Shown in pieces: positions 20,325 through 57,297 of a stretch of 64,000 bases of DNA. The stretch is from Phymorhynchus buccinoides. Lineage: Eukaryota; Mollusca; Gastropoda; Neogastropoda; Raphitomidae. The stretch covers positions 769,167 to 833,166 of the forward strand of contig CM065698.1 of NCBI GenBank assembly GCA_017654935.2, read 5' to 3'. A program made the position numbers and the translations under genes. Every line of letters begins with the position of its first letter. Within the stretch, counting starts at the first letter, position 1. The notes under the pieces are model-generated. The model was not told the DNA's origin, searched no databases, and worked only from the letters and a program-made list of their open reading frames with translations.

Positions 20325-23300
20325 TGTTCAGATTGTATCCACAGTGGAACATCTCAATTTGTTCCATGAATCTGTTTTCTTCTCTCTGTGTTCAGATTTG
20401 TATCCACAGCCCATTCAATTTCTTTTCTTCTGTTCAGATTGTATCTCTTGACATCAATGTCTTTATCTGTAATTCTCTCTGTTCAGATTGCATCCACAGC
20501 CATCAATGTCTTTTCTCGCTGTTCTTCTATCCTGTTCAGACTTGGTTATCCCCCAAGGGACCATCATTGTCTTTTCTTCTGGTTCCTTCTCTCTGTTCAG
20601 GATTGTGGCATCAGACATGAAGGTCTTTCTCTGTTCTTCTCTGTGTTCAGATTGCTTTCCACAGACATCAATGTCTTTCTCTGTTCTTCTCTGTTTTCAG
20701 ATTGCATCCACAGCCTCCAAATGACTTTCTCTGGTTTTCTTCTTTCTGTTCAGATTGTTATTCCCCCAGCCATGAATGAATTTCTCTGCTCTTCTCTCTG
20801 TTCAGATTGTATCCACAGACTTCAATGTCAGAATCTGTTATCCAACAGGGGGAACATTGTATCCACAAACATGAATGTCTTTTCTCTGTTCTTCTCTGTG
20901 TTCAGATTGTTTCCACAGACATGAATGTCTTTCTCTGTGTTCAGATTGTATCCACAGCCATCAATGTCTTCTCTCTTGTTCTTCCTGCTGCTGTTTCAGG
21001 CTGTATCCCCACCCATGAATGTCTCAATCTGTTCTTTAATCTGTTCAGATTGTATCCACAGACATCAATGTGTTTCTCAGATCTTCTCTCTGTCCAGACC
21101 CAATCCACAGACATGAATGTCTTTCTCTGTTTCTTCTCTCTGTTCAGATTGAATCCACAAACATCATTGTCTTTCTCTGTTCTTCTCTCTGTTCAGATTG
21201 TTCATCCAACAGGACATTGAATTGTATATTCTCTGTTCTTCTCTCTGTTTTCAGGATTGTATCTCCACAGGTGAACAGAAATGGGTCTTTTTCCTCTGTT
21301 CTTCTCTCTGTTCAGATTGTATCCACAGACATCAATGTCTTTCTCTGTTCTTCTCTCTGTTCAGATTGTATCCACAGACATCAATGTCTTTCTCTGTTCT
21401 TCTCTCTGTTCAGATTGGCATCCACAGACATGAATGTCTTTATCTGTTCTTCTCTTCTGTTCAGGATTGTGATCCCCTCCATCAATGGTCTTTCTCGTTC
21501 AGAATGGGGAGGGAGGTATCCACAGACATGCATGTCTTGGGGTCTCTGTTCTTCTGTGTTCAGATTGTATCCACAGACATCAATGTCTTTCTCTGTGTTC
21601 TTCTCTCTGTTTCAGATTGTAATCCACAGACATGACATGTCTTGTGGGTCTCTTGTTCTTCTCTCTGTGTGGGTGCGAGATTGTATCCACAGACATCAAT
21701 TGTCTGTTCTCTGTTCTTCTCTCTGTTCTAGATTGTATCCACAAACATGAATGTCTTTCACTGTTCTTCTCTCTGTTTCATGATTGAAATCCACAGACGA
21801 TGCATTGGCGTTTCTCTGTTCATATTGGAGGGGGAGGGTTCCACAAACATCAATGCCTTCTCTTTCTTCTTCTCTATGTTCAGATTGAATCCACAGACAC
21901 CATGTCTTTCTCTGTTCAGCATTGAATCCACAGCCATCAATTTGTCTTCTCTGTAGATTTGAATCCACAGAACATCAATGTCTTTCTCTGTTCAGATGTA
22001 TCTAAGACATAATGTCTTGTCTCTGTTCTTCTCTCTGCTCAAAGTGTATCCACAGACATCATGTCTTTTATCTGTTCTTCTCTCTGTTCAGATTGCATCC
22101 ACAGACATCAAGTCTTTATCTGTTCTTCTCTGTGTTCAGATTGTATCAACAGGACATCAAAACCTTCTCATGTGTTAGTATCTCTGTTCAGCTTGAATCA
22201 CAGCCATTCAATGTCTTCTCTTGTTCTTCTCTCTGTTCAGATGCATCCACAGACCATCATGTCTTTCTCTGTCTTATAGCGCTTCAGATTGTATCCACAG
22301 CCATCATGTTCTTTCTCTGTTCTCTTCTCTCTGTCAGATTGTTATCCACAGACATCAATGTCTTTCTCTGTTATTCTCTGTGTTCCTTCACTCAGATGTA
22401 TCCACCGACATCAAAATCTTTCTATGTTCTTGTCTTCGTTTCAGGTGGCAGCCACAGCATCAATGTCTTTCTCTGTTCTTCTCTCTGTCAGATGCATCCA
22501 CAGCCATCAATGTCTTTCTCTGTCTTCTTCGGTTCAGCTTGTATCCACAGCATCAATGTCTTTCTATGTTCTCTCTCTGTTAGATTGTATCCACAGCCAT
22601 CAGTCTTTCTATGTCTTCTCTCTGTTCAGATTGTATCCACAGACATGAATGTCTTTCTATGTTCAGATTGTATCCCCCCTACAGACATCAATGTCTTTCT
22701 CTGTTCTTCTCTTGTTCAGATTGTATCCACAAGACATGAAGGTCTTTCTCTGGTCAGATTGCATCCACAGCCATCCAATGTCTTTATCTGTTTTCTCTCT
22801 GTTCCGATTGTATCCACAGACATCAAGGTCTTCTCTGTTCTTACTCTCTGTTCAGATTGTATCCAGAGACATGAATGTCTTTATCTGTTCAGATTGTATC
22901 CCCACAGACATCAATGTCTTTATCTGTTCTTCTCCTGTTTCAGATTGTCATCCACAGACATGAATGTCTTCCTCTGTTCAGATTTGCATCACACAGCCAT
23001 CAATGTCTTTCTCTGTTCTTCTCTCTGTTCAGATTTGTATCCCCAGACATGAATATCTTTCCTCTGTCTTCTCTCTGTTCAGATTTGTATCCACAGACAT
23101 GAATGTCTTTCTCTGTTCCGATTGCTATCCCCAGACATGAATGTCTTTCTTGTTCTTCTCTCTGCTCAGATTGAATCACAGCCTATGTGAATGTCATTAT
23201 CTGTCTTCTCTGTGGTTCAGATTGTATCCACAGAAATGAATGTCTTTCTTCTGTTTCTTCTACTTAGTTCAGATGCACCACAGCCATCAATGTCTTCTCC

Positions 23301-26300
23301 TGTTCTTCTCTCTGTTCAGATTGTATCCACAGACATGAATGTCTTTCTCTGTGTTTCAGATTGTATCCACAGACAGATGTCTTTCTATGTTATTATCTAG
23401 TTCAGATTGCATCCACAGACATCAATGTCTTTCTCTGTGTCTTCTCTCGTTCAGATTGTATCCACAGCCATGAATTGTCTTTATCTGTTCTCTCTGTGTT
23501 CGATTGTATCCAGAGGACCTCAAATGTCTTTTCTCTGTTCTTCTCTCTGTTCAGATTGACATCCACAGCCATCAATGTCTTCTCTGTTCTTCTCTCGTTC
23601 AGATTGATCACAGACATTCAATGTCTTCTCATGTTCTTCTCTTGTTAGATTGTATCCACAGACACAATGTCTTTCTCTGTTCTGTCTCTCTGTTCAGATT
23701 GTATCGACAGACATGAATGTCTACTCTGTTCTTCTCTCTGTCAGATTGCATCCACAGCCATAAATGTCTTTCTCTGGTCTTCTCTCTGTTCAGATTGCAT
23801 CCACAGACATGAATGTCTTTCTCTGTCAGATTCATCACAGCATCAATGTCTTTCTATGTTCTTCTCTGTGTCAGAGTATCACAGACATCAATGTCTTTCT
23901 CTGTTTTCTGTCTGTTCAGATTGTACTCCACCGACATGATGTCTTGCTCTGTTCTTCTCTCTGTTCAGATGCATCCACAGACATCAATGTCTTTCTCTGT
24001 TCTTCTCTGTGTTCAGATTGCATCCACAGACATCAATGCTACTCTGTTCTTGCTCTCTGTTCAGATGTATCACAGCCATGAATGTCTTTATCTGTTCTTC
24101 TCTGTGTTCTATTGTATCCACAGCCATCAATGACTTTCTCTGTTCTCTCTTGCTCAGATTGCATCCACAGCCATCAATGTCTTTCTCTGTCTTCTCTCTG
24201 TCAGATGTATCCACAGACCTCAATGTCTTTCTCTGTTCTTCTCTCTGTTCAGATTGATCCACAGACATCAATGTCTTTCTTGTTCAGATTGTATCCAACA
24301 GACATGAATGTCTTCTATGGTCTTCTATAGTCAGATTGTATCCACAGACATCAATGTTTTCTCTGTACTTCTCTCGTTAAGATTGTATCCACAGCCATCA
24401 ATGTCGTTTCTCTGTTATTCTCTTTGCTTCAGATTGCATCCACAGACATGAATGTCTTTCTTGTTCTTCTCTCTGTTCAGATGGCATCAAAGCATCATGT
24501 CTTTCTCTGGTCTTCTCTCTGTTCAGATTGCATCCACAGCAATCAATGTCTTTCTCTGTTCTTCTCTCGGCCTCAGATGGTATCACAGACATGCATGTCT
24601 TTCTCTGTTCTTTCCCTGTGACAGATTGCATCCACAGCCATCAATGTCTTCGTTCCTTCTCTTGCCAGATGTATCACAGACTATGAATGTCCTTCTTGTT
24701 CTTCTCTCTGCCTCAGATTGAATCCACAGCCATGAAGAGTCTTTATCTGTTCTCTCTCTGTTCAAGATTGTATCCACAGACATGGAATGTCTTCTTGTTC
24801 AGATTGTATCCACAGCCATGAAGGTCTTTATCTGATTCTTCTCTCTGTCAGATTGTCATCCACAGACAGAAGTCTTTATTCTCTGTTCGATTGTATCCAC
24901 AAACATCAAGTCTTTCTATGTCTTCTCTCTGGTTCAGATTGAATCCACAGCCATCAATGTCTTCTCTGTTTCTCCTCTGTTCAGATTGCACACAGCCATG
25001 AAGCGCTTTATCTGTTCTTTCTGTGTTCAGATTGTATCCACAGACATGAATGTCTCTCTGGCCTTCTCTTGTTCAGATTGTAACCACAGACATGAATGTC
25101 TTTATATGTTTTCTCTGTGTTCATATTGTATCCACAGACATGAATGTCTTTCTATGTTCTTCTCTCTGTTCAGATGAATCCACAGACATCAATGTCTTTC
25201 TTGTCAGATTGTATCCACATACATGAAGGTTTTCTCTGTTCTTCTCCTGCTCAGATTGCATCCACAGCCATGAAATGTACTTTATCTGTTCTCTCTTGCT
25301 TCAGATTGATCCACAGACATCAATGTCTTTATCTGTTCTTCCCTCTGTGTTCAGATTGTATCACAGAAATCAAAACCTTCCTCTGTTCTTCTCTCGTTCA
25401 GATTGCATCCACAGCCATCAATGTCTTTCCTGTTCTTCTCTGTGTTCAGATGTATCCACAGACAGCAATGTCTTCTACTGTTCTCTCTCTTTCAGATTGT
25501 ATCCACAGGACATGAATGCTCTTTCTTGTCAGATTGTATCCCACAGACATCAATGTCTTTCTCTGTTCTTCTCTCTGTTCAGAATTGCATCCACACCATC
25601 AATGTTTTTCTCTGTTTTCTACTGTTCAGATTGTAATCCACAGACATGAATGTCTTCTCTGTTCTTCTCTCTGTTCAGATTGTAGCACAGTACATGAATG
25701 TCTTTCTCGTCAGATTTTATCACAGACTATGAATGTCTTTCTCTGTTATTCTCTCTGCTCAGATTGCATCCACAGCATGAATGGTCTTTATCTGTCTCTC
25801 TGTTTCAGATTGTATCACAGGACAGAATGTCTTCTCTGTTCTTCTCTCTGTTCAAGATTGTATCCACAGACATCAAATGTATTCTCTGTTCCATCTCTGT
25901 TTCAGATTGTATCCACGACATTCAATGTCTTTCTCTGTGCTTCTTCTCTGCCTCAGATTGCATCCACAGCCATGAATGTATTTATATGTTTCTTCTCTGT
26001 GTCAGATTGTATCCACAGACAATGAATGTCTTCTCTGTCTTCTCTCTGGTCAGATTGTATCACAAAAGACATGAATGTCTGTATCTGTTCTTCTCTGTGT
26101 TCAGATTGTATCCACAGACATCAATGTCTTTCTCTGTTCTTCCTCCTGTCAGATGCATCCACGCACATCAATGTCTTTCTATGTTCGTCTCTTATGTTCA
26201 GATTGATCCACAGACATGCACATGTCTTTCTCTGTTCTTCTACTATGTTCAGATTGCATCCACAGACATCAATGTCTTTCTCTGTTCTCTCTCCTGTTCA

Positions 26301-29300
26301 GATTGTATCCACAGCCATCAATGTCTTTCTCTGTTTTCTCTTGTCAGATTTGTCATCCACAGGACAGCAATGTCTTTCTATGTTTTCTCTCTGTTCAGAT
26401 TGTATCCACATAGAAATCAATGTCTTTCTCTGTTCTTATCTCTGTTCAGATTGTATCACAGGACATGAATGTCTTCTTGTTCAGATTGTATCCACGACAT
26501 CACATGTCTTGCTCTGTTCTTCTTCTGTTCAGATGTATCACAGACATGAATGTCTTTCTCTGTTCAGATGGTTCCACAGCATCAATGTCTTTCTCTGTTC
26601 TTCTCTCTGTTCAGCTTGTATTCACAGACATCAATGTCTTTTCTCTGTTCTCTCTTGTCAGATTGCATCACAGCCATCAATGTCTTTCTCTGTATTGTTT
26701 CTCTCTTCCTGTTCAGATTGTATCCACAGACATGAATGTCTTTCTCGTTCCGATGATAGCCACAGACATGAATGTCTTCTTGTTCAGATTGTATCCACAA
26801 ACATCACGGTCTTTACTCTGTCTTCTCTCTGTAAGATTGTCATCCACAGACATCAATGTCTGTTTCTCTGTTCTTCTCTCTGTTCAGATTGTATCCACAG
26901 ACCTGATGTCTTTCTTGTTCAGATTGTATCACAGACATCAATAGTCTTTCTCTGTTCTTCTCTCTGTTCAGATTGTATCCACAGACAGATGGTCTTTTCT
27001 GTTCAGATTGATCCACACAAACATCAATGTCTTATTTTCTTCTCTGCTGTTCAGATGTATCCCAAGACATGAAGTCTTCTCTGTTCTTCTCTGTGTTCAG
27101 ATTGTATCACAGACATCAATGTCTTTCTCATGTTCTTCTCTGTGTTCAGATTGTATCCACAGACATCAAGGTCTTTATCTGTCCTTCTTCTCTCTGTTCA
27201 GATTTGTATCCACAGAATCAAGTCTTTCTCTGTTCTTCTCTCTGTTCAGATTGTATCCCAGAATCAATGTCTTTCTCTGTTCTCTCTTCTGTTCAGATTG
27301 TCTCCACAGACATGAATGTATTCTCTGTCAGATTCGTCATCCACAGACATCAATGTTTTCTCCGTCTTCTCTCTGCTCAGATTGAATTCACAGCCATTCA
27401 ATGATCTTTCTCTGTTCTTCTCTCCGTTCAGATTGTATCAACAGCCATCCAAAGTCTTTCTCTGTTCTTTCTCTGCTTCAGATGCATCGACAGCCATCAA
27501 TGTATTTCTCTGTTCTTCTCTCTGTAGATGTATCCCAGACATCAATGTCTTTATCCGTTCTTCTCTCTGTTTCAGAATTGTAATCCACAGACATGAATGT
27601 CTTTCTCCTGTTAAGATTGGAATACACAGACATCAATGTCTTTCTCTGTTCTTCTCTCGTTCAGATTGTAGTCCACAAGACATGAATGTCTTTCTCATGT
27701 TCAGATTGTATACACAGGACATCAATGTCTTTCCTGTTCTCTTTCTGTCAGATTGTATCCACAGACATGAATGTCTTTTCTCTGTTCTTCTCTCTGTCAG
27801 ATTGATCCACAGCCATCAATTGTCTTCTCTGTTCTTCTCTCTGTTCAGATTGTAGCCACAGACATGAATGTCTTTCTCTCGTTAAGATTTGTATCACAGA
27901 ATGAATGTCTTCTCTGTCAGATTGTATCAAAACATCATTGTCTTCTCTGTTCGTCTCTCTGTTCAGATTTATCCACAGACATCAATCCCTTCTCTCTTTC
28001 TCTGTTCTCTCTCTGTTCAGATTGTATCACAGACATGAATATATTTCTCTGTTCAGATGGTATCACAGACATCAATGTCTTCTCGGGTTTCTCTCTCTGT
28101 TCAGATTGTATTCCAGCAGACATGAATGTCTTTCTATGTTCAGATTGTATCCACAACATCAATGTCTTTCTCTGTTCATTCGCTCTGTCAGATTGTATTC
28201 CACAGACATGAAGTCTTTCTCTTTTCTTCTCTGTGTTCAGATTGTATCCACAGACATCAATGTCTTTTCTCTGTTATTCTCTGTGTTCAGATATGTTATC
28301 CAACGACATCAATGTTTTATCTTGTTCTGCTTCTCGTCAGATTGGTATCCAAGACATCAATGTCTTTCTCTGTCTTCTCTCTGTCAGATTGTCTCAAAGA
28401 CATCATGTACTTTCTCTGTTCTTATCTCTGTTCAGATTGTTTCCACAAAGACATGAATGTCTTTCTCTGTTCAGATTGTATCCACAGGACTATCAATGTT
28501 TTTCTCTGTTCTTCTCTACATGCTCAGAGATTGCATCCAAAAGCCAATCAATGTCTTTCTCTCGTTCTTCTTCTGTTCAGATTGCATCCACAGCCATCAA
28601 TGTCTTTCTTCTGTCTTCTCTCTGTTCAGCATTGTACCACAGGACATGAATGTCTTTCTCTGTTATTCTTCTTGTTCAGATTGTATACACAGACATGAAT
28701 GTCTTTCTCTGTTCAGATTGTATCCACAGACCGAATGTCTTTCTCTGTTCTTCTCTGTGTCAGATTGTATCCACAGACTCAATGTCTTTCGCTGTTCTTC
28801 TCTGTTGTTCACGATTGTATCCACAGACATTCAATGTCTTTATCTGTTATTCTCTTGTTCGATTGTTATCCACAGAACATCAATGTCTTTCCTGTTCTTC
28901 TCCTCTGTTCAAGATTGTATCCACAGAATCAAGTCTTTCTCTGTTCTTCTCTCTGTTCAATGTATCCACAGACATGATGTCTTTCCTCTCTGTGCAGATT
29001 GTATCCACCGAATCAATGTTTTTCTCGGTTCTTCTCTACTGCTCATATTGCATCCACAGCCATAAGGTCTGCTCTGTTCTTCTCTGTGACTCAGATTGCA
29101 TCCACAGCAATCAATGTACTTTATCCTGTTCTTTCTCTCTGTCGATTGTATCCACAGACATGAATGACTTTCTGTTCAGAATTGTATCCACAGACATCAA
29201 GTTTTTCTCTGTTCTTCTCTGTGCTCAGATTTTTGGCATCCCACAGCCATCAATGTCTTTATCTGTTCTTCTCTCTGACTCAGATTGCATCCACAGCCCA

Positions 29301-29427
29301 TCAATGTCTTATCGGTTCTTCGCTATGCCTCAGATTGCATCCAGCCATCAATGATCTTTATCTTCTCCTACCGTCAGATTGCATCCACAAGCCATCAATG
29401 TCTTTATCTGTTCTTCTCTCTGCTCAG
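20325..29427 (+). repeat. 49-bp minisatellite A, about 185 copies (9.1 kb)
   Basis: Unit: ATTGTATCCACAGACATCAA then TGTCTTTCTCTGTTCTTCTC then TCTGTTCAG; spacing of 49 was checked at 21331 and 21380. Frequent alternatives are ATTGCATCC, ACAGCCATC and ACATGAATG. Every unit carries a 20-base pyrimidine tract ending in CAG, a textbook 3' splice site. AGACAT-CA/GA-ATGTCT is a perfect 6-2-6 dyad. Many units have one-base deletions or insertions, so none of the overlapping 60-350-codon frames is credible as coding. The last unit runs straight into a possible exon at 29428. Confidence 0.97.
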
Positions 29428-29483
29428 ATTCCATCCTCAGCGAACGCCATTGACAAGAAACAGTGCACACACAGCAGAAAAAG
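29428..29483 (+). CDS. Possible exon at the end of minisatellite A
   Basis: TTCTTCTCTCTGCTCAG (the last array unit) is followed by ATTCCATCCTCAGCGAACGC, which is related to the array unit start ATTGCATCCACAGCC but then becomes unique. The frame reads IPSSANAIDKKQCTHSRK and reaches a possible donor, AAAAAG|GTGGAG, at 29483/29484. The same frame stays open to 29553. No protein family is recognised. The idea that this is the original exon whose acceptor seeded the array rests on the analogy with 54638-54793 and 44946-45018; on its own the evidence is weak. Confidence 0.25.
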
Positions 29484-29599
29484 GTGGAGAGTGGTGCTGG
29501 AGCTGTTGGGATCTGTTTGCTGGCTGCACACTACTGTCTATTATCGCCATTGACAAAACAACATGCCCTCCGAATGATTAAGTCTGACAGTAATAGCTT

Positions 29600-29832: not shown

Positions 29833-30221
29833 GCTGTTTTTTCAGGCCATTTTCTTTCACTGTTTCCGGCCAGAAAAAAGTCAAATGACAAAGTTGAAGT
29901 GGATGAGGAATTGTCAGAAATAGCTTCCATCAATTGTCTCTGGCTTTTGTGCTTTTTGGATGTTAACGTGTTCCACTGACTGGGATTGAGACACAGCCAA
30001 AGAAGACATTTTTATCATTGTCGTTTTCAGAATCATAACCAACGCTGTCGAGAAAGTTAAAATTAACTAGCTGTTTCTTTCGTACCAACTGCCAATGTCT
30101 GTAGAATTTTCGTCGAGAAAACTTTTAGTTTTCGTCATGAAAGTCGGTTACTTTGCGCCATTCTCTGTGCGTGCCCTTTGTGTGCTGTGTTTGTGCCATA
30201 TGCACACTGGTGGCACATAAA
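29833..30221. other. Low-copy spacer between the two 49-bp arrays
   Basis: Unique sequence without a supported gene. Confidence 0.5.
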
Positions 30222-33127
30222 GTTGTTTTTCCCTGCAGACTACAACAGCCATGTAGTGAGGATAAAGCAGTAAGTTATTTTCCCCTACAGACTACAGCCC
30301 TGTAGTGAGGATAAAGCAGTAAGTTGTTTTTCCCTGCAGACTACAGCCCTATAGTGAGGATAAAGCAGTAAGTTGTTTTTACCTACAGACTACGCCCCCT
30401 CCCCCTATAGTCGAGGCGGATAAAACGCACGGTACGTATGTTTTCCCCTGCAGACTCAGAATATAGTGAGGAATAAAGCAGTGTAGGTGTTAAGTTGTTT
30501 TTCCTGCAGACTTACAGCCCGTAGTGAGGATATAAAGCACGGGTCGTTTGGGGTTAAGGTTTTTTTGTTTCTTTTATGTTAAGTTGTTTTTTTTACCCTG
30601 CAGGACTAAGCCCTAAGTGAGGAGTAGAGCAAATAAGTTGTTTTTCCCTACAGAATACAGCCGTAGTTGAGGATAAAGCAGTAAGGTCGTTTTCTTCCCT
30701 GCAGACTACAGCCCTGTAGTGAGGTAATAAAGCAGATAAGTTGAGTTTTTTTACATACCAGGACTACAGCCCACTATAGTTGGGATAACGCAGGTAAGGT
30801 TGTTTGTCCTTCCCCTGCCAGAACTACAGCCCTAAAGTGAGGTAAAGCAGTAAGTTGTCTTTCCCTGCAGATTACAGCCCTGTAGTGAGGATAAAGCAGT
30901 AAGTGTGTTTTTCCTGCAGACTACAGCCCCGTAGTGAGGTTTAAAGCAGGTTAAGTTGGTTTTTTTTTACCGACAGACTACAGCCCTATAGTGCAGGATA
31001 ACGCAGTAAGTTGTTTTTTTCCCCTGCCGGACTAAGCCCTATAGTGAGGATAAAGCAGTTAAGTTGTTTTCCTACAGACTACAGCCCTGTAGTGAGGATA
31101 AAGCAGTTTAAGTTGTTTTTACATACAGACTACAGCCCTATAGTGAGGGGGATAACGAAGTAAGTTGTTTTTTTACCCTGCATAGACCTACAGCCTTATA
31201 GTGAGGACTATAGCAGGTAAGTTGTTTTTTCCCGGCAGACTACAGCCCTGCCCTGTAGTTGAGGATAAGCAGTAAGTTGTTTTTTACCTAAGACTTACAG
31301 GCCCTATAGGAGGAAGAACGCATTAAGTTTGTTTTTTCCCTGAAGCTACAGCCCTTATAGTGAGGATATAAAGCAGATTAAGTTCGTTTTTCCCTGCCAG
31401 ACTAAGCCCTGTAGTGAGGAATTAAAGCAGTTTAAGTTGTTTTTTCCCCTGACAGACTACAGCCCTATAGTGAGGATATAGCAGGATAGTGTTTTCCTAC
31501 AGACTTACAGCCCTATAGTGAGGATAGAGCCAAGTAAGTTGTTTTTACCTACATACTACAGCCCTAATAGTGAGGGGGGCGGATTAAAGCAGTTTTTTAG
31601 TTGTTTATTTTTTATTTTTATTTTTTTTAAAGTTGTTTTTTTTTCCCTACAGTGGGAATACAGCCCATCGTGAGGATAACGCAGTTCAAGTTGTTTTTCC
31701 CTACAGACTACAGCCCTGTAGTGAGGATTTTAAAACAGTAAGTTGTTTTCCCCTACAGACTACAGCCCCTGTAGTGAGGAAAAATAAAGCAGTTGTTTAA
31801 GTCTGTTTTTTCTACAGACTACAAAACGTAGTTGAGGGATTAAAGCAGTTTAAGAGTTACGTTCGTTTTTGTTATTTTTCCTACAAGACTAACAAGCCCA
31901 TAGTGAGGATAAGCAGTTGTTTTAAGTTGTTTTCCCCTGCAGACTACAGAATTTGCTGTGTGAGGATAAAGCAGTAAGTTTTTTTTTCCCTGGCACAGAC
32001 TACAGCCCTATAGTGAGGATAGCAAAATTAATTTAAATTGCTTTTTTTTCCTACAACGGACTACAGCCCTGATAGTGAGGGGGATAGAGCAATATAAATT
32101 GTTTTTTCCTACAGGACTACAGCCTATAGTGAGGATAGAGGCAAATAAACTGTTTTTCCCGGCCAGAATAACAGCCTATAGTGAGGAAAAGCAGTAAGTT
32201 GTTTTCCCCTACAGGAATACAGCCCTGTAGTGAGGATAATTAAAAGCAGTTTTTTAAAAGTAAGTTGGTTTTCCACGCAGACTACAGCCCTTTGTAGTGA
32301 GGATTAAAGCAGCTATAGTTGTTTTTCCCTTGCAGATACATGCCGACATAGTGAGGATTAGAGCAGTGAGTTGTTTTTCCCTGACAGAGCTACAGTCCCT
32401 ATAGTGAGAGACATAAAGAGTCAGTGTTTTTCCCGGCAGACCTACAAGCCCTGTAGTGGAGGATAATAAGCAGTAAGTGTTTTTTTCCCTGACCAGACTA
32501 CCAACCCTTATAGGTGAGGATAATTTAAGCAGTTATTAAGTTGTTTTTCCACTAACAAGACTACAGCCCTGTAGTGAGGATCTAAAGCAGGTAAGGCCCT
32601 TATTAGTGAGGAATAAACGGCACAGAAAGTTGTTTTTCCCTGCAGACTACAGCCCTGTATTAGTGAGGGGATAAAGCAGTAAGTTGCTTTTCCTACAGAC
32701 TTACAGCCCTATAGTGAGGATAAAGCAAGTTTTAAGTTTGTTTTTCCCACAGGACTACAGCCCTGTAGTGGGGGATAAAGCAGTTAAGTTGTTTTTCCTA
32801 ACAGCTACAGCCCTATAGTGAGGAGGGGTGATTAGAGCAAATAAATGTTTTTTTTCCTACAGACTCCAGCCCTATGTGAGGGATAGAGCAAAATGTTTTT
32901 TCCATACAGACTTAAAGCCCTATAGCGAGGGGGGATAGAGCAATATAAATTGTTTTTCCTGCAGACTACAGCCCTTAGTGATGGGAAAGGATAAAGTCGT
33001 GAATTCGTTTTCCCCTACCAGACTACAGACATGTAGTGAGATAAAGAGTAAAGTTATTTTCCCCTACAGACTACAGTGTCCTTGTAGTGAGGGATTAAAG
33101 CAGTAAGTTGTTTTTTACCAACAACAA
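30222..33127 (+). repeat. 49-bp minisatellite B, about 58 copies (2.9 kb)
   Basis: Unit: ACTACAGCCCTGTAGTGAGG then ATAAAGCAGTAAGTTGTTTT then TCCCTGCAG; spacing of 49 was checked at 30301 and 30350. Each unit has an acceptor (TTTTTCCCTGCAG) and a donor (GCA|GTAAGT), bracketing a 28-31-base pseudo-exon. CTACAG-CC-CTGTAG is a perfect 6-2-6 dyad. The first unit differs (ACTACAACAGCCATGTAG). Copies carry abundant small indels. Not related in sequence to array A despite the identical period. Confidence 0.97.
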
Positions 33128-33514: not shown

Positions 33515-33830
33515 TACCACGGACATCCTCTGTGGCAGTCGGTAGGTCTGGAATCCTATCACCAGGCTGAGTGGGTTTTTTCGCGACCACCTCTAGAACA
33601 CTTCCTCCTGTGTTGCAGTGGTGAGGTTCTCGGAATCCATCAACAGTGCTGAGTGTTTTTTTAGCGACCACGTGCCAGACATCCTCTGTGCAGTGGTGAG
33701 GTCTGGAATTATCACTCAGTGCTGAGTGTTTTAGGACCACGTCAAGACATCCTATGTTGACAGTGGTGCAGGTCTGGAATCACCACCAGTGCCGAGTGTT
33801 TGAGCGACCACATCCAGACATCCCTGTGTA
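33515..33830 (-). repeat. ~75-bp tandem repeat, about 4 noisy copies
   Basis: Plus-strand unit: GCAGTGGTGAGGTCTGGAAT ... CAGTGCTGAGTGTTTT ... GCGACCACG ... CAGACATCCTCTGTG. Open on the minus strand for 60-80 codons per frame, with indels between copies. Coding cannot be supported. Confidence 0.8.
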
Positions 33831-34015: not shown

Positions 34016-34092
34016 CTGAAGGGAGGGGTGTGGATGTGGCCAGGTACTATGCAGATGACCCATGGACAGGCGGGCTAATGTCTCCAGAAAAG
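34016..34092 (+). CDS. Possible internal exon, 77 nt, phase 1 to 0
   Basis: Preceded by TCTGCCTTTGGCTGCAG and followed by a strong donor, AAAAG|GTAAAG. After two bases that would finish a split codon, one frame is open across all 25 codons (EGRGVDVARYYADDPWTGG...PEK); the other two frames contain stops. The local sequence is balanced and not repetitive, unlike everything around it. No family is recognised. Its phase-0 end fits the phase-0 start of the possible exon at 40021. Gene identity and expression are unknown. Confidence 0.35.
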
Positions 34093-41899: not shown

Positions 41900-44205
41900 A
41901 CTTAACAATGACCCACACATGCTCACCAAACAACACCCATGAAGTCACCACTTAATGACCCACACATGCTCACCAAACAACATCCATGAAGTCACCACTT
42001 AATGACCCACACATGCTCACCAAACAACATCCATGAAGTCACCACTTAATGACCCACACATGCTCACCAAACAACATCCCATGAAGTCACCACTTAATGA
42101 CCCACACATGCTCACCAAACAACACCCATGAAGTCACCACTTAACAATGACCCACACATGCTCACCAAACAACACCCATGAAGTCACCACTTAACAATGA
42201 CCCACACATGCTCACCAAACAACACCCATGAAGTCACCACTTAACAATGACCCACACATGCTCACAAAACAACACCCATGAAGTCACCACTTAACAATGA
42301 CCCACACATGCTCACCAAACAACACCCATGAAGTCACCACTTAACAATGACCCACACATGCTCACCAAACAACACCCATGAAGTCACCACTTAACAATGA
42401 CCCACACATGCTCACCAAACAACACCCATGAAGTCACCACTTAACAATGACCCACACATGCTCACCAAACAACACCCATGAAGTCACCACTTAACACATG
42501 ACCCACACATGCTCACCAAACAACACCCATGAAGTCACCACTTAACAATGACCCACACATGCTCACAAAACAACACCCATGAAGTCACCACTTAATGACC
42601 CACACATGCTCACCAAACAACACCCATGAAGTCACCACTTAACAATGACCCACACATGCTCACCAAACAACACCCATGAAGTCACCACTTAATGACCCAC
42701 ACATGCTCACCAAACAACACCCATGAAGTCACCACTTAATGACCCACACATGCTCACCAAACAACACCCATGAAGTCACCACTTAACAATGACCCACACA
42801 TGCTCACAAAACAACACCCATGAAGTCACCACTTAATGACCCACACATGCTCACCAAACAACATCCATGAAGTCACCACTTAATGACCCACACATGCTCA
42901 CCAAACAACACCCATGAAGTCACCACTTAACAATGACCCACACATGCTCACCAAACAACACCCATGAAGTCACCACTTAACAATGACCCACACATGCTCA
43001 CCAAACAACACCCATGAAGTCACCACTTAACAATGACCCACACATGCTCACCAAACAACACCCATGAAGTCACCACTTAATGACCCACACATGCTCACCA
43101 AACAACATCCCATGAAGTCGCCACTTAACAATGACCCACACATGCTCACCAAACAACATCCATGAAGTCACCACTTAACAATGACCCACACATGCTCACC
43201 AAACAACACCCATGAAGTCACCACTTAACAATGACCCACACATGCTCACCAAACAACACCCATGAAGTCACCACTTAACAATGACCCACACATGCTCACA
43301 AAACAACACCCATGAAGTCACCACTTAACAATGACCCACACATGCTCACCAAACAACACCCATGAAGTCACCACTTAACAATGACCCACACATGCTCACC
43401 AAACAACACCCATGAAGTCACCACTTAACAATGACCCACACATGCTCACCAAACAACACCCATGAAGTCACCACTTAACAATGACCCACACATGCTCACA
43501 AAACAACACCCATGAAGTCACCACTTAACAATGACCCACACATGCTCACCAAACAACACCCATGAAGTCACCACTTAACAATGACCCACACATGCTCACC
43601 AAACAACACCCATGAAGTCACCACTTAACAATGACCCACACATGCTCACCAAACAACACCCATGAAGTCACCACTTAATGACCCACACATGCTCACCAAA
43701 CAACACCCATGAAGTCACCACTTAACAATGACCCACACATGCTCACCAAACAACACCCATGAAGTCACCACTTAACAATGACCCACACATGCTCACAAAA
43801 CAACACCCATGAAGTCACCACTTAACAATGACCCACACATGCTCACCAAACAACACCCATGAAGTCACCACTTAACATTAACAATGACCCACACATGCTC
43901 ACAAAACAACACCCATGAAGTCACCACTTAAAATGACCCACACATGCTCACCAAACAACACCCATGAAGTCACCACTTAACAATGACCCACACATGCTCA
44001 CCAAACAACACCCATGAAGTCACCACTTAACAATGACCCACACATGCTCACAAAACAACACCCATGAAGTCACCACTTAATGACCCACACATGCTCACCA
44101 AACAACACCCATGAAGTCACCACTTAACAATGACCCACACATGCTCACCAAACAATGACCCATGAAGTCACCACTTAATGACCCACACATGCTCACCAAA
44201 CAATT
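41900..44205 (-). repeat. 50/47-bp satellite, about 47 copies
   Basis: Plus unit: CTTAACAATGACCCACACAT then GCTCACCAAACAACACCCAT then GAAGTCACCA; a 47-bp variant lacks ACA after CTTA. Copies are almost identical, in contrast to the noisy arrays at 20-33 kb. On the minus strand each unit has TTGTTTG|GTGAGC, a good donor lookalike. AAGT-CACC-ACTT is a short dyad. Confidence 0.98.
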
Positions 44206-44945: not shown

Positions 44946-45018
44946 TTTTTCTGGGGTCGACACAGGTAGAAGTCTTCCTTGTCTTGGACAGTGTTGGGAG
45001 GGCAGGGCCTGCATTCCC
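44946..45018 (-). CDS. TNF-receptor-like gene, third exon in window (73 nt, phase 1 to 2)
   Basis: On the minus strand GTGTTGTGTGTTTCAG (acceptor) precedes GG GAA TGC AGG CCC TGC; the exon reads ECRPCPPNTVQDKEDFYLCR and reaches the donor AAAAA|GTGAGG at 44946/44945. Two leading bases complete the codon started by the last base of exon 54638-54793, giving Gly-Gly-Glu-Cys. C.PCP.NT is a classic opening of a TNFR cysteine-rich module, and its spacing after C.PG....TG in the previous exon fits. The 56-bp satellite (45019-47270) begins at this acceptor, with the first 8-9 exon bases repeated in each unit. The rest of the receptor (membrane span, cytoplasmic part) was not found at lower coordinates. 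Confidence 0.6.
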
Positions 45019-47270
45019 CTGAAACACACAACACACATCATCCATGATGGACAACACTAAGTGTGCATTCCTCTGAATCACACAACACACATCATCCATG
45101 ATGGACAACACTTTGTGTGCATTCCTCTGAAACACACAACGCACATCATCCATGATGGACAACACTAAGTGTGTGCATTCCTCTGAAACACACATCATCC
45201 ATGATGGACAACACTAAGTGTGCATTCCTCTGAAACACACAACGCACATCATTCATGATGGACAACACTCAGTGTGTGCATTCCTCTGAAACACACATCA
45301 TCCATGATGGACAACACTAAGTGTGCATTCCTCTGAAACACACATCATCCATGATGGACAACACTAAGTGTGTGCATTCCTCTGAAACACACAACACACA
45401 TCATCCATGATGGACAACACTAAGTGTGCATTCCTCTGAAACACACAACACACATCATCCATGATGGACAACACTAAGTGTGCATTCCTCTGAAACACAC
45501 AACACACATCATCCATGATGGACAACACTAAGTGTGTGCATTCCTCTGAAACACACAACACACATCATCCATGATGGACAACACTAAGTGTGCATTCCTC
45601 TGAAACACACAACACACATCATCCATGATGGACAACACTAAGTGTGCATTCCTCTGAAACACACAACACACATCATCCATGATGGACAACACTAAGTGTG
45701 TGCATTCCTCTGAAACACACAACACACATCATCCATGATGGACAACACTAAGTGTGTGCATTCCTCTGAAACACACAACACACATCATCCATGATGGACA
45801 ACACTAAGTGTGTGCATTCCTCTGAAACACACAACACACATCATCCATGATGGACAACACTAAGTGTGCATTCCTCTGAAACACACAACACACATCATCC
45901 ATGATGGACAACACTAAGTGTGCATTCCTCTGAAACACACAACACACATCATCCATGATGGACAACACTAAGTGTGCATTCCTCTGAAACACAACACATC
46001 ATCCATGATGGACAACACTAAGTGTGTACATTCCTCTGAAACACACAACACACATCATCCATGATGGACAACACTAAGTGTGTGCATTCCTCTGAAACAC
46101 ACAACACACATCATCCATGATGGACAACACTAAGTGTGTGCATTCCTCTGAAACACACAACTCACATCATCCATGATGGACAACACTAAGTGTGTGCATT
46201 CCTCTGAAACACACAACACACATCATCCATGATGGACAACACTAAGTGTGTGCATTCCTCTGAAACACACAACGCACATCATCCATGATGGACAACACTA
46301 AGTGTGTGCATTCCTCTGAAACACACAACGCACATCATCCATGATGGACAACACTAAGTGTGTGCATTCCTCTGAAACACACAACACACATCATCCATGA
46401 TGGACAACACTAAGTGTGTGCATTCCTCTGAAACACACAACACACATCATCCATGATGGACAACACTAAGTGTGTGCATTCCTCTGAAACACACAACGCA
46501 CATCATCCATGATGGACAACACTAAGTGTGCATTCCTCTGAAACACACAACACACATCATCCATGATGGACAACACTAAGTGTGTGCATTCCTCTGAAAC
46601 ACACAACGCACATCATCCATGATGGACAACACTAAGTGTGTGCATTCCTCTGAAACACACAACACACATCATCCATGATGGACAACACTAAGTGTGTGCA
46701 TTCCTCTGAAACACACAACACACATCATCCATGATGGACAACACTAAGTGTGTGCATTCCTCTGAAACACACAACACACATCATCCATGATGGACAACAC
46801 TAAGTGTGTGCATTCCTCTGAAACACACAACACACATCATCTATAACGGACAACAGTAAGTGTGTGCATTCCTTTGAAACACAACGCACATCATCCATGA
46901 TGGACAACACTAAGTGTGCATTCCTCTGAAACACACAACACACATCATCCATGATGGACAACACTAAGTGTGTGCATTCCTCTGAAACACACAACACACA
47001 ACGCACATCATCCATGATGGACAACAGTAGTGGACACTAAGTGTGTGCATTCCTCTGAAACACACAACACACATCATCTATAACGGACAACACTAAGTGT
47101 GTGCATTCCTCTGAAACACACAACACACATCATCCATGATGGACAACACTAAGTGTGTGCATTCCTCTGAAACACACAACACACATCATCCATGATGGAC
47201 AACACTAAGTGTGTGCATTCCTCTGAAACACACAACACACATCATCTATAACGGACAACACTAAGTGTGT
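45019..47270 (-). repeat. 56/54-bp satellite made of an amplified splice acceptor, about 40 copies
   Basis: Minus unit: AGGAATGCACACACTTAGTG then TTGTCCATCATGGATGATGT then GTGTTGTGTGTTTCAG; a 54-bp form lacks one CA. Each unit ends in the same acceptor as exon 44946-45018 and restarts with the exon-like AGGAATGCA. CATCAT-CC-ATGATG is a perfect 6-2-6 dyad, kept in nearly all copies; a few have CATCATCTATAACGG instead. Copies are very uniform. Confidence 0.97.
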
Positions 47271-47436
47271 GCGATTTAAGATGTGCATAAGGCAGTCAAA
47301 AGTGGTCCTTATGTTTATCTGTAGCATCATTGATAATAAATAGTTTATTATGTATTCTGTTGTTGACCAAAATATCTACAACAGTACAAGTTGCTTATTC
47401 TAATGTAGGCTGACCCAAGATTGCAGAACAGGTAGT
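47271..47436. other. Unique spacer
   Basis: No gene or repeat recognised. Confidence 0.5.
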
Positions 47437-47589: not shown

Positions 47590-49050
47590 AGCTTTCAGTG
47601 GGTCTGTGACCAGTGCCTAGAGGAACAAAAAGAACCCCAAACCGCTATGGACGCAAAAATTGATTGGATGGTGGAAATGATCATCAAGCCGACCTCGGAC
47701 CGCTAGAGTGGATACTATGAACTCGAAACTGAAAGTTGATATTGTGGAAGAGAAGATTGAAGAAATTGTGGAGAAGAAGGTATTTGAGGCCCTGGAAGAG
47801 GAAAGAGAAAAGGAAAAGAACAAAAAGAATATCATAATAGTAAACTTGAAAGAAAGTCCCAAGAGTTCTTTTGATGAGAAAAAACAGGATGACTTGACAC
47901 AGGCAAAAAAACTGATGGAAAAAATTGTTGATGCGAGTGACATTGATTTGAGTGAGCCAGTGCGATTGGGGAGAGAAGGAGGAAACAGGCCTAGGATGCT
48001 TAAACTGACAGTAAACAGTGAAAAGAAAAAGAGAGAAATATTGAAAAATGCCCCTAAACTGAATGAGCAACAAACTGAGCGATCCAAGAGGGTTTACATT
48101 AATGCAGACTACACACCAAAGGAAAGGGAAATGTACAAAGCACTGCGGTTGGAGAAGAAGAGAGAAATGAAAGGACTACACAGACTACACACCAAAGGAA
48201 AGGGAACTGTACAAAGCACTGCGGTTGGAGAAGAAGAGAGAAATGAAAGGACTAACAGAGCACACCAAAGGAAAGGGAAATGTACAAAGCACTTTGGAGA
48301 AGGAAGACTACACACCAAAGGAAAGAAATGTAGAATGAAAGGACTACACAGACTACACACCAAAGGAAAGGGAAATGTACAAAGCACTGCGAATTACACA
48401 CCAAAGGAGAAGACAGCACTGCGATTGGAGAAGAAGAGAGAAATGAAAGGACTACACAGACTACACACCAAAAGAAAGGGAACTGTACAAAGCACTGCGA
48501 TTGGAGAAGAGAGAAATGAAAGGACTACACAGACTACACACCAAAGGAAAGGGAAATGTACAAAGCACTGCGGTTGGAGAAGAGAGAAATGAAAGGACTA
48601 CACAGACTACACACCAAAGGAAAGGGAAATGTACAAAGCACTGCGGTTGGAGAAGAAGAGAGAGAATGAAAGGACTACACAGACTACACACCAAAGGAAA
48701 GGGAAATGTACAAAGCACTGCGGTTGGAGAAGAAGAGAGAGAATGAAAGGACTACACAGACTACACACCAAAGGAAAGGGAAATGTACAAAGCACTGCGG
48801 TTGGAGAAGAAGAGAGAATGAAAACTACACAGACTACACACCAAAGGAAAGGGAAATGTACAAAGCACTGCGATTGGAGAAGAAGGAGAGAGAAATGAAA
48901 GGTGAAAAGAATCTAGTGATAAGGCATGGGAAAGTGGTAGTGAAGTCAGATATAGAGAAAGCTAACCCCAAGGAAGACGGTGGCAAGAGTGCCAAACACG
49001 TCTGGCAGTGCTTCAGGCCATTGACTGACAAACTCGGAGGATGCAAATAG
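47590..49050 (+). pseudogene. L2/CR1-like LINE ORF1 with internal tandem expansion
   Basis: The element is 5'-truncated: it enters at FQWVCDQCLEEQKEP, the end of a PHD-type finger. After IDWMVEMIIKPTSDR a one-base frame change leads to MNSKLKVDIVEEKIEEIVEK (ATG at 47717), a charged coiled-coil-like segment, then KNIIIVNLKES, DASDIDLSEPVRLGREG, RPRMLKLTV and REILKNAP (RRM-like nucleic-acid-binding part). The C-terminal piece YINADYTPKEREMYKALRLE is followed by about ten tandem copies and partial copies of its own 70-79-bp coding unit (48109-48900). GEKNLVIRHGKVVVK and the stop at 49048-49050 complete ORF1. A single copy would be normal for this family. The expansions mix frames, so the full ORF1 is not intact. 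Confidence 0.85.
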
Positions 49051-49051
49051 T

Positions 49052-49843
49052 GTAAATAAAAGTTATGATTTGTTTGGTGATAATTCTAAAAGAAAGTTTG
49101 AATGGAAACACTGTAATATAGAAACTGATGATTCAATTACTGTTGTATATAGCAATGTGGATAGTTTGTTGAATAAAAAAGATGAGCTATTATGTCGTAT
49201 TGATGAATTGAAACCAGCCATTATTGGCCTCACAGAAATTCTTCCTAAATATAAAGGACATAACAACATTAATAAGAATATTACTGATGTAGAGTTAGGT
49301 ATTAAAGATTATACTCTTTTCAGAAATGATAACCCCCATAGAGGAGTGGCAATCTGGATAGAAGATTCTCTGAATGCTAGACAATGTAAACTAAATGATT
49401 TTAAATTCCAGGAGAGTGTTTGGTGTGAATTTACAACCACTAAAAATGAAAATGTTCTTATTGGTTGCGTGTGCAAGAGTCCAAATTCGACCAAGGAAAA
49501 TGTAGATAACCTATGCAAACTCTTGAAATCAAATAAATTATCACAGTATAATAAAGTGTGTGTGTTTGGAGATTTTAACTATCCAAACATTAAATGGCAG
49601 GGACAGTGGACAAGTGGGGAAGACAGTGACTTCATAGAATGTTTAAGGGATGCCTACCTCATACAAAAAGTCACGAAACCAACAAGAAATAGGCTTGGAC
49701 AAAACTCTAATATTCTAGACTTAGTTCTTGTCAACAGTGAGGGATTAGTGTCTGATATCATTCATTGTGACCCCATAGGAAAAAGTGACCACGATGTACT
49801 TATTTTTAAGCTGCATGTCCAAACAAGCGCAAAATCGCAATAG
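49052..49843 (+). pseudogene. L2/CR1-like LINE ORF2, AP endonuclease domain
   Basis: Open from shortly after the ORF1 stop. Endonuclease motifs appear in order: VVYSNVDSLLNKKDEL, PAIIGLTEILPK, GVAIWIEDSLN, VCVFGDFNYPNIKW (the GDFN catalytic motif), ILDLVLVN and IGKSDHDVLIF (the catalytic SDH). All catalytic residues seem present. The frame stops at 49841-49843 because a foreign ~390-bp insertion starts just before. It acts by nicking target DNA for target-primed reverse transcription. No credible ATG; ORF2 of this family is commonly translated by reinitiation. Confidence 0.88.
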
Positions 49844-50226
49844 TTTGTGGCGCGCGGTCTATTTTTACCACTCCAATCAGGAGTCATCTCCCCTGGCTTT
49901 TCAATAATTTTAATCTGTAAACCAGAATGTTATCTCTGCACCATTTCGTAACTTTTTATATCTTTTGGAAAACATTTAAAACTATGTATCCTACTTATAC
50001 TCATCAAAAGAAGCACCGCATACTCGTCGTGTCTGTTGTAGTGTCTGTATTACGTATGTTTATTATTTTGTACGCTTTTAAAATACATCATTTTAAAGAG
50101 CGGCCTCAATTAATTTTGAAGTGTAGCCTCGATTTGAAGTGCGACCATTTTGTCAAAATGTGCGACAATTTTGGAACGACAGACCGACCGAGACCGACAA
50201 AGTGAGTTATAGGTTTGTGGCTTAAG
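49836..50226 (+). mobile_element. ~390-bp insertion with hairpin end inside LINE ORF2
   Basis: The LINE protein breaks at FKLHVQTS and resumes at KRRYHFNLKKGNYSEMN. The intervening DNA begins AGTTTGTGGCGCGCGGTC and ends with the perfect 22-base palindrome GTTTGTGGCTT-AAGCCACAAAC at 50213-50234; the exact right boundary within it is uncertain. The terminal GTTTGTGGC strings are inverted relative to each other. The right end matches 39060-39140. Inside, ATTTTAAAGAGCGGCCTCAA resembles 52534-52553. No coding frame. Confidence 0.7.
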
Positions 50227-52378: not shown

Positions 52379-52512
52379 ATATTGCAATCATAGTTTGATT
52401 GTTTTCGCATGCAAATGCAACCTAATTATAGAAAACATTCTGGATGGGACGTATTATAAGCCGTGAGGCTTAGGCAGAAGCCAGTCCCTCTACTACTACT
52501 ACTACTACTATT
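52379..52512 (+). other. LINE 3' UTR with (CTA)n tail
   Basis: GGGACGTATTATAAGCCGTG and AGGCTTAGGCAGAAGCC can form a short stem-loop (AAGCC ... GGCTT). Seven CTA repeats (52491-52511) follow. The minus-strand fragment at 15120-15445 has the same kind of tail. Confidence 0.8.
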
Positions 52513-52524
52513 ATTTTAAAGAGC

Positions 52525-52640
52525 AGCCTCAATTTCAAGTTGGGGGCATTTCTATATGGGTCACAGCTATGCAGAAAAAAACCAAGGGACTTAATCGTGG
52601 TGGGTCAGTGTATCTTTAAAAAGCAGAAAATTAGAGATGA
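52525..52640 (-). mobile_element. MITE-like repeat, right member of the inverted pair
   Basis: On the minus strand it begins TTAAAGATACACTGACCCAC and ends CTTGAAATTGAGGCTGCTCT. It is homologous to 47437-47565 in the opposite orientation. Confidence 0.6.
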
Positions 52641-52747
52641 CTCCCAGATTAATCTGTGACTGAAGTAGTAACAAATCAATGTAACATTGATCATTGACAC
52701 TACCTGTATCAACGTATACAGAACTTGGTAAAGGGATGACACTTTAA

Positions 52748-54637: not shown

Positions 54638-54793
54638 CTGTATGTGTGGGCTGGAATCCAGGTCTGCAGAACTCGTTAAAAGGTTGGCAGTTAGACATGG
54701 CGCCAAGATTAATTTGAGGCTTGAGGTAGAAGTGTCCCGTCTCCAGCTTACAGAAACAGTTGGCACTGTCTTCAACAGACTCTTTGTCTTTCT
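54638..54793 (-). CDS. TNF-receptor-like gene, second exon in window (156 nt, phase 1 to 1)
   Basis: Minus strand: acceptor TTTGTATTGCAG at 54794-54805, donor ACAG|GTTAGC at 54638/54637. After two leading bases the exon reads KDKESVEDSANCFCKLETGH, FYLKPQINLGAMSNCQPFNE, FCRPGFQPTHT plus one base. CFC.LETGHFYL and C.....C.PGF.P are typical of a TNFR cysteine-rich repeat. Its phase-1 start matches the phase-1 end of exon 57130-57297 (junction codon GAG) and its end matches exon 44946-45018. The product would be extracellular, part of a ligand-binding region. The acceptor side is the founding unit of the satellite at 54794-55830. Other cysteine-rich families remain possible, but CxCxxGxFY favours TNFR. 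Confidence 0.7.
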
Positions 54794-55830
54794 CTGCAAT
54801 ACAAACAAATACAGCTCACAGAAACAGTTGACACTGTCCTCAACAGACTGTCTTTCTCTGCAATACAAACAGATACAGTTCACAGAAACAGTTGGCACTG
54901 TCCTCAACAGACTGTCTTTCTCTGCAATACAAACACCAGCTCACAGAAACAGTTGACACTGTCCTCAACAGACTCTGTGTCTTTCTCTGCAATACAAACA
55001 CCAGCTCACAGAAACAGTTGACACTGTCCTCAACAGACTCTGTGTCTTTCTCTGCAATACAAACACCAGCTCACAGAAACAGTTGACACTGTCCTCAACA
55101 GACTGTCTTTCTCTGCAATACAAACACCAGCTCACAGAAACAGTTGACACTGTCTTCAACAGACTCTTTGTCTTTCTCTGCAATACAAACAGATACAGCT
55201 CACAGAAACAGTTGACACTGTCCTCAACAGACTGTCTTTCTCTGCAATACAAACACCAGCTCACAGAAACAGTTGACACTGTCCTCAACAGACTCTGTGT
55301 CTTTCTCTGCAATACAAACACCAGCTCACAGAAACAGTTGGCACTGTCCTCAACAGACTGTCTTTCTCTGCAATACAAACACCAGCTCACAGAAACAGTT
55401 GACACTGTCTTCAACAGACTCTTTGTCTTTCTCTGCAATACAAACAGATACAGCTCACAGAAACAGTTGGCACTGTCCTCAACAGACTGTCTTTCTCTGC
55501 AATACAAACACCAGCTCACAGAAACAGTTGACACTGTCCTCAACAGACTGTGTCTTTCTCTGCAATACAAACACCAGCTCACAGAAACAGTTGACACTGT
55601 CCTCAACAGACTGTGTCTTTCTCTGCAATACAAACACCAGCTCACAGAAACAGTTGACACTGTCCTCAACAGACTGTGTCTTTCTCTGCAATACAAACAC
55701 CAGCTCACAGAAACAGTTGACACTGTCCTCAACAGACTCTGTGTCTTTCTCTGCAATACAAACACCAGCTCACAGAAACAGTTGACACTGTCCTCAACAG
55801 ACTCTGTGTCTTTCTCTGCAATACAAACAC
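54794..55830 (-). repeat. 61/65-bp satellite made of an amplified intron-exon junction, 17 acceptors
   Basis: Minus unit: AGAAAGACAGTCTGTTGAGG then ACAGTGTCAACTGTTTCTGT then GAGCTGGTGTTTGTATTGCAG; 65-bp units read GACACAGAGTCTG. About 45 bases of each unit are copied from the start of exon 54638-54793, the rest from the intron end. Seventeen TTGTATTGCAG acceptors were counted including the exon's own. Each unit also has CT|GTGAGC, a possible donor. A 315-codon minus frame crosses the array by chance of repeat length. Confidence 0.95.
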
Positions 55831-56590: not shown

Positions 56591-57040
56591 CATCCCCCCG
56601 TGGGGATACCGGGGGTTCTTTTGTATAAATAGTTCCCCCCTTCTGGAAGTTCTGTGCTTGTAACTTCCTCTAATTCTGCCAGACTCTGCCTTTTCCCTTT
56701 GCTTACTGTCATCTATCTTTCTGCCTTACCAGGGGGGGGGGGGGGTGGGGGGAAAAAACACTTTCAAAAAGGGGGGGGGATCAGGGGGGGGGGGGGGGTC
56801 AGAGGAAGAGAACTATATCTTCAAGTATTAAGATCCTCCAAAGTCGGAGTGTGGCTGTCCACGTGGAGGGGTAATCAAAAACGGTCACACACGTTATGTT
56901 CTCATCCCTAGCTGGTGCATTTGTACCATAGTGTTCAAGTGCTTCGGCTGTGTGGGATGATCCCTGGAGTCTTTAAGCCAGGGTAAGGCAAACAACAACA
57001 CCAAGTATTAAGACACATTTAGGTGTTTTTTTAAATGTCT
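56591..57040. other. Intronic DNA with poly-G runs
   Basis: G-runs at 56731-56752, 56771-56779 and 56785-56799. The remainder is unique. Confidence 0.6.
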
Positions 57041-57152
57041 TTTTCTGACATCATTTTATGAACAATTGTTTACCGTTCTGTGCTTGGCACTTGTCATTTT
57101 CTGACATCATTTTATGAACAATTGTTTACCGTTCTGTGCTTGGCACTTGTCG
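57041..57152 (-). repeat. 56-bp tandem duplication of an exon-intron donor
   Basis: TTTTCTGACATCATTTTATG ... CGTTCTGTGCTTGGCACTTG occurs from 57041 and again from 57097, with the exon's own end from 57153. On the minus strand each copy carries the exon end CAAGCACAGAACG and the donor GTAAAC. The copied donor lies 56 bases downstream of the proximal one. Confidence 0.9.
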
Positions 57153-57297
57153 TTTTCTGACACGGAGGGGAAGATCTTGAGGACGTGGCATGGCTCCACG
57201 GCGAAGGACGACGTCCGTTTGTACAGGCCGTAATTGTCGGGGCATTTCCAGCAGCGGTCCGCTTCGCCGTTGTTCTCACAATACTTCACCACATGGT
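57130..57297 (-). CDS. TNF-receptor-like gene, first exon in window (168 nt, phase 1 to 1)
   Basis: Minus strand: acceptor TTTGGTTGGTTCAG ends at 57298; donor AACG|GTAAAC at 57130/57129. After two leading bases the exon reads HVVKYCENNGEADRCWKCPD, NYGLYKRTSSFAVEPCH, SVSENDKCQAQN plus one base. YC......C..CP..YGLY with later PC and KC is the pattern of a TNFR cysteine-rich repeat. Codon use is balanced and GC-richer than the surroundings. It is a symmetric phase 1-1 exon, like the next one. If the duplicated distal donor were used instead, the frame would hit TGA after about seven codons. Signal peptide and earlier repeats must lie at higher coordinates. Confidence 0.7.

Follow-up and report, generated by a model that had tools for sequence, protein, structure and literature searches.

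Lancelet genes carry so-called mirages, minisatellite-like tandem repeats that lie over intron-exon boundaries and are described for both 3' and 5' borders (PMC3087553; PMC3902484). In the globin gene BflGb6, the 3' end of an intron is duplicated together with the start of exon 2, the inner units are homogenised, the edge unit is distinct and two haplotypes have 6 and 3 units, while in BflGb9 a 3' exon boundary is duplicated (PMC3087553). Mirage units in Adh3 measure 10-72 bp, and the Adh3 data together with globin reverse transcription-PCR suggest, as far as presented in that report, that regular splicing is undisturbed (PMC3087553). Two mirage cases are described for lancelet PGBD5, with TnC cited as another (PMC3902484). 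Here we describe arrays of apparently the same kind in a 64,000-nucleotide stretch of DNA, hereafter the window, from the neogastropod Phymorhynchus buccinoides (GenBank assembly GCA_017654935.2, contig CM065698.1, positions 769,167 to 833,166). The window contains a predicted minus-strand gene fragment of three exons, E1 to E3, and three of the six exon ends, the E3 acceptor, the E2 acceptor and the E1 donor, are spanned by tandem arrays.

As in lancelet mirages, these two acceptors and the donor, which belong here to predicted exons, stand in register with the repeat units, and in the E3 and E2 arrays the authentic exon edge would likewise lie at the array end with homogenised copies further inside. 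The differences lie in number and host. There are 41 junctions at E3 as compared to the 6 and 3 units of BflGb6, the host is a gastropod and not a cephalochordate, three junctions of a single gene fragment are concerned and the case is known from sequence alone. It would therefore appear to be a known kind of structure in another lineage and with more copies. Among the Creative Commons-licensed PubMed Central papers listed, some of the lists being cut short, and judged from titles and the starts of abstracts, we recognised no report of junction-spanning arrays in a mollusc, which does not prove that there is none.

Duplications carrying the splice signals of a border can create introns, as stated in PMC4974935. 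Unlike cases of intron gain by tandem duplication (ATP2A1; potato RdRp), the gene described here gives no sign of a new intron or exon, and its arrays contain either acceptors or donors and lack an AGGT exon segment that makes both ends. The nearest approach to such cases is the repeat unit at 30220-33115 of the window, in which both signals are present. Human alternatively spliced introns are also said to stem from tandem arrays, to go by the title of a 2007 paper by Zhuo and colleagues.

Predicted exons and the array at the E3 acceptor

E1 (57130..57297, minus strand; 168 nt, HVVKYCENNGEADRCWKCPDNYGLY..., acceptor TTTGGTTGGTTCAG/ACC, where the slash marks the splice junction), E2 (54638..54793, minus strand; 156 nt, EKDKESVEDSANCFCKLETGHFYLKPQ..., donor CAG/GTTAGC of 6.9 bits) and E3 (44946..45018, minus strand; 73 nt, ECRPCPPNTVQDKEDFYLCRPQK, starting at the last acceptor, donor AAA/GTGAGG of 7.8 bits) are predicted exons, placed by frame continuity in the case of E1 and by frame continuity with E1-E2 and donor score in the case of E3. 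Joined via phase-1 junctions they give one open frame of 131 residues; the phase at the end of E3 is 2, unlike that of E1 and E2. The predicted product is rich in cysteine. Its best Pfam match is ELAPOR1-like TNFR (PF23091; E=9e-4, 19.6 bits as compared to a curated cut-off of 33.2), followed by Ephrin_rec_like (PF07699; E=0.013, 15.8 bits, cut-off 23.1). No other Pfam family was found at E≤0.1 and none scored above its curated cut-off, no solved structure was found in PDB at E≤1, and one protein search for relatives, with two candidates, gave none at E≤1. The likeness to TNF receptors is therefore only weakly indicated and is to be taken as resemblance, not family membership. A Pfam scan for further exons (33.1-41.4 kb on the plus strand, 36.0-44.9 kb on the minus strand) returned DUF3915 alone, under its cut-off. 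The intron between E2 and E3 harbours a broken element of the long interspersed nuclear element type on the plus strand (47600-52700; Exo_endo_phos_2, E=2e-11; RVT_1, E=1.5e-26).

The E3 acceptor lies in an array at 45010..47272 on the minus strand, for which Tandem Repeats Finder (TRF) reports a period of 56, 41.1 copies and 93% matches. When the minus strand is cut at each CAG, 41 acceptor-like junctions result, that is 40 decoys and the presumed E3 acceptor at 45018. This bears out an earlier note on this DNA, according to which the acceptor of the exon at 44946-45018 is amplified about 40 times. The 40 upstream units comprise an intron end plus 9 exon bases and stand in register with the E3 junction. 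A unit of 56/54 bp, as given in the note, applies to 35 of them (23 and 12, respectively), the other five measuring 47 (two units), 49, 52 and 73 bp (one each). That each unit ends and restarts alike was worded too strongly: the exact end GTGTTGTGTGTTTCAG is found in 27 of the 40 and the exact start AGGAATGCA in 38, the remaining ends being GCGTTG- and GAGTTG- variants, GATTCAG, TTTCAAAG and shortened forms. The restart does match the start of E3, as the note had it, since GGGAATGCA and the unit start share 8 of 9 bases (binomial P=1e-4 for 8/9 or better). Beyond these 9 bases the similarity drops (11/20 over 20 bases); the sequence after the junction at 45018 is GGGAATGCAGGCCCTGCC..., that after almost every other junction AGGAATGCACAC.... 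The array consists of 14 distinct unit types that recur along its length, and its flanks are unique.

Arrays at the E2 acceptor and the E1 donor

An array at 54743..55830 on the minus strand comprises 16 upstream units of 61-65 bp, each made of about 14 intron and about 51 exon bases. Unit splitting and acceptor counts give 17 junctions: 16 decoys and the presumed E2 acceptor. The first 51 bases of E2 are identical to one of the unit types at 49 positions. Nine distinct unit types recur along the array, which has a higher period of 255 bp, and the flanks are again unique. The observation that one gene contains two separate arrays with different units thus stands, each of them in register with its presumed acceptor and on the same strand.

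A third junction-spanning array of the gene, absent from the earlier note, is located at 57036..57162 on the minus strand. It comprises 2.3 copies of a 56-bp unit (TRF) that covers about 32 nt of exon end and about 24 nt of intron, and it contains two identical donors, ACG/GTAAAC (5.6 bits), 56 bp apart. The E1 acceptor, the E2 donor and the E3 donor have no spanning array. Because the third array spans the E1 donor, junction arrays are not confined to intron 3' ends. The recurrent process at intron 3' ends that the note had suggested is therefore not supported in that form, and we rejected its restriction to 3' ends because the donor array argues against it.

Could the copy numbers, or the arrays themselves, stem from mis-assembly? 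The window contains 1000 N and a noisy array at 20-29 kb (68% matches, 17% indels according to TRF), and the copy number of the E3 and E2 arrays as assembled may be off. Both arrays are, however, clean repeats (92-94% matches, TRF) with 14 and 9 unit types and unique flanks, and we consider an assembly artefact extremely improbable.

A different concern is that E3, or even the entire gene fragment, is not real and that the array at E3 is a satellite that happens to have CAG after a T-rich stretch. Homology is weak, the phase at the end of E3 departs from that of the other two exons, motifs resembling an acceptor occur frequently (about 2 per kb outside repeats) and the acceptor in the E2-array consensus is unremarkable when compared with shuffled units (P=0.23). 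On the other hand, three phase-matched predicted exons give a cysteine-rich open frame of 131 residues with a TNFR-like stretch, and three independent arrays coincide with three predicted boundaries. An unreal exon or gene is thus decidedly unlikely in our view.

Origin of the arrays and choice of the splice site

The junction arrays are probably minisatellites of the mirage type, that is products of a junction-straddling duplication that was later expanded and in which the exon-adjacent copy continues to serve. In such a scenario, a short tandem duplication of about 56-65 bp would have straddled an exon-intron boundary by chance and carried along the splice site plus 9 to about 51 exon bases. 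Slippage or unequal exchange would then have led to the 41 acceptor junctions at E3, the 17 at E2 and the two donors at E1. Recurring unit types, length variants and the 255-bp period of the E2 array are to be expected of slippage and exchange. In the E3 array, the unit joins the intron sequence of the outer flank, ATCGCACACACTTAG (ATCGCACACAC), to that of the exon, GGAATGCAGGCC (AATGCAGGCC), as GGAATGCACACACTTAG; by eye the two share GCA at the point of joining, which fits a short slippage-type duplication that was later expanded.

We infer expression of the gene and use of the copy that adjoins the exon body, the others being intronic decoys. Such decoys would be tolerated for want of a strong donor close to any of them. 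Since the last acceptor, unlike the decoys, adjoins the exon body and has a strong donor close by, the established principle of exon definition predicts that the last copy is used, paired with the true donor. Splice sites were scored with hand-entered frequency matrices, and the acceptor threshold of 7.3 bits was chosen after the scores were known. At this threshold, the E3 array contains 35 acceptor-like sites on the minus strand and the E2 array 17, with none on the plus strand in either, while the non-repeat part of the window has 2.3 (plus) and 1.9 (minus) per kb. The presumed true acceptors score 9.1 (E3) and 9.3 bits (E2), the decoys 5.7-8.1 bits in the E3 array and 7.4-8.6 bits in the E2 array. 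Compared with shuffled units on the minus strand, the consensus acceptor gives P=0.03 for the E3 array and P=0.23 for the E2 array, and 9 of 26 array consensuses in the window have an acceptor at P≤0.05 on some strand, five of these nine being pieces of the 30-33 kb family; an array consensus is therefore no strong evidence by itself. For donors, a limit of 5.6 bits was set by the score of the presumed E1 donor. At this limit, the sole donor-like site in the E2 array stretch is that of E2 itself, and in the E3 array stretch the donor of E3 is accompanied by just one other, which belongs to a single variant unit; outside repeats there are 2.7 donor-like sites per kb. Splicing to a decoy acceptor with the remainder of the array retained would give a stop in 39 of 40 cases at E3 and 15 of 16 at E2, and in the two remaining cases the frame is open but shifted. 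Use of the second E1 donor would likewise lead to a stop.

Several points weigh against this interpretation. The identification of the gene is weak, with Pfam matches below cut-off, no PDB match and no homologue found. Decoys and true acceptors differ little in score, the gap being 0.7-3.4 bits. The donor argument depends on the threshold: when the limit is lowered to 5.0 bits, 31 weak sites (GATGTGTGT, 5.1 bits) appear in the E3 array, only half a bit below E1's donor, and none in the E2 array, and the prediction that the last copy is used is therefore clearer for the E2 array. The GCA microhomology amounts to 3 nt, was seen by eye and concerns one array; the E2 array has at most one shared base. 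Lastly, an RNA hairpin was considered as the cause of true-acceptor choice and discarded, as the unit preceding the E3 acceptor is identical in sequence to the others and can form the same hairpin.

It may be asked whether the decoys have a function of their own, by slowing or regulating the splicing of the intron or by feeding unproductive, stop-containing isoforms. The small score gap to the true site and the stops upon use would suit such a role, as would the RNA folding of the E3-array unit, in which the pyrimidine tract is paired and which exceeds that of shuffled sequences (z -2.8, dimer -3.7). The E2-array unit has no such fold (z 0.28), the similarity of the units is also provided by homogenisation of the array, and regular splicing is reported to be unaffected by lancelet mirages in the cases presented in PMC3087553. 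Functional decoys are very unlikely on balance. Independently of this question, the exon-derived start of the E3-array unit is able to pair as RNA with the pyrimidine tract of the same unit.

Chance placement and a preference for splice junctions

Tandem repeats with a period of at least 20 cover 27065 of the 63000 known bases of the window (43%). From coverage alone, an overlap with at least three of six junctions is expected with P=0.52; at least three of six within one unit of an array edge have P=0.002. In 20000 random placements, in which only arrays ending inside an exon were counted, 35 arrays gave a mean of 0.38 junction-spanning arrays, with P=0.057 for at least two and P=0.006 for at least three; for the 28 arrays of at least 100 bp the respective values were 0.045 and 0.004. 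All these P values are underestimates, since it was in part the arrays that drew attention to the exons. Taken by itself, the pair of acceptor arrays is a borderline case with respect to random placement, whereas the set of three, donor array included, is unlikely to arise in this way. The earlier statement that two such arrays are unlikely to be chance is consequently weak, given 43% repeat coverage and a two-hit P of about 0.05, and as a claim about two arrays alone it was rejected; it gains force (P=0.006) only when the third is added.

A rival reading extends the idea of the note to donors and assumes a mechanism that favours splice junctions, in which the sequence or a transcription-linked structure would seed duplications there; it would predict genome-wide enrichment. 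The fact that three of six junctions of a single gene fragment are spanned (random placement, P=0.006) is in its favour, as are another acceptor-rich and strand-biased array in the window (169 sites versus 1) and the nine of 26 consensuses with an acceptor at P≤0.05, five of them from the 30-33 kb family. Nonetheless, repeats make up 43% of the window, and the large arrays at 41900-44203 and 58245-60252 are free of acceptor-like sites of 7.3 bits on both strands, so that arrays in general are not acceptor-derived. Selection would moreover be expected to purge arrays deep in exons, and survivors at junctions would thus be expected without targeting. The junction arrays do not share a tendency to fold either: DNA z-scores are -3.4 for the E1 donor array, 0.45 for the E2 array and -1.4 for the E3 array, and arrays elsewhere reach -4.6 (16093-16812) and -4.1 (31682-31823). 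Folding of 26 arrays, of which one gave no z-score, led us to discard DNA hairpins as a common cause because the three junction arrays are not alike. A junction-preferring process is hence unlikely, and a mirage-type origin from chance duplications is the reading we prefer.

The window contains further candidates. A candidate acceptor array at 20419..29441 (plus strand) has about 190 copies of a unit of about 49 bp (TTCTCTCTGTTCAG/ATTG...; TRF, acceptor counts) and 169 acceptor-like sites of at least 7.3 bits on the plus strand and 1 on the minus strand; its last copy runs into ATTCCATCCTCAGCGAACGCCATTGAC, a possible plus-strand exon at about 29428. A candidate two-signal array at 30220..33115 (plus strand), split by TRF into several pieces, has a unit of about 49-54 bp with an acceptor TTTTTCCCTACAG and a donor-like GCA/GTAAGT (GCAGTAAGT), and 44 (plus) and 26 (minus) acceptor-like sites at the same threshold. 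The two signals of its unit flank a stretch of about 28 nt and resemble an amplified microexon. At about 34016-34092 (plus strand) lies an exon-looking stretch (EGRGVDVARYYADDPWTGGLMSPEK between AG and GTAAAG), whose 32-residue peptide has no Pfam match. The repeats at 20400-33800 are mostly noisier than the junction arrays (about 67-80% matches, many indels), possibly reflecting unpolished long-read sequence. Short arrays at 63244-63497 and 63721-63858 contain a strong acceptor-like TTCTCTCTCTCTCAG (plus strand; P 0.00 and 0.01 versus shuffles) in CT-rich DNA. ARAGORN found no transfer RNA gene in the window, and a stretch similar to a short interspersed nuclear element presumably recalls gastropod elements. 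An open reading frame for reverse transcriptase/RNase H has 85 relatives among 7993 candidates scored (those sharing most words). The best one named by organism, third in the list, belongs to a gastropod, Batillaria attramentaria (43% identity over 73%); the other named animals are arthropods, and most entries are without organism.

On present evidence, the arrays described here place mirages of the lancelet type in another animal lineage, and with more copies. They also constitute a natural test of acceptor choice, as about 40 much alike 3' splice sites are in competition with a single one whose main difference is its position beside a real exon and a strong donor. Should arrays at junctions turn out to be widespread, they would offer a source of intron change that can be tested. 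A much wider idea, quite unlikely as we see it, is that minisatellites arise again and again at the splice junctions of the host genome and that many introns have, at their start or their end, arrays of tens to hundreds of cloned splice sites. If this were true, units with an acceptor and a donor-like site, as at 30220-33115, would be a lasting stock from which microexons and new introns could come.
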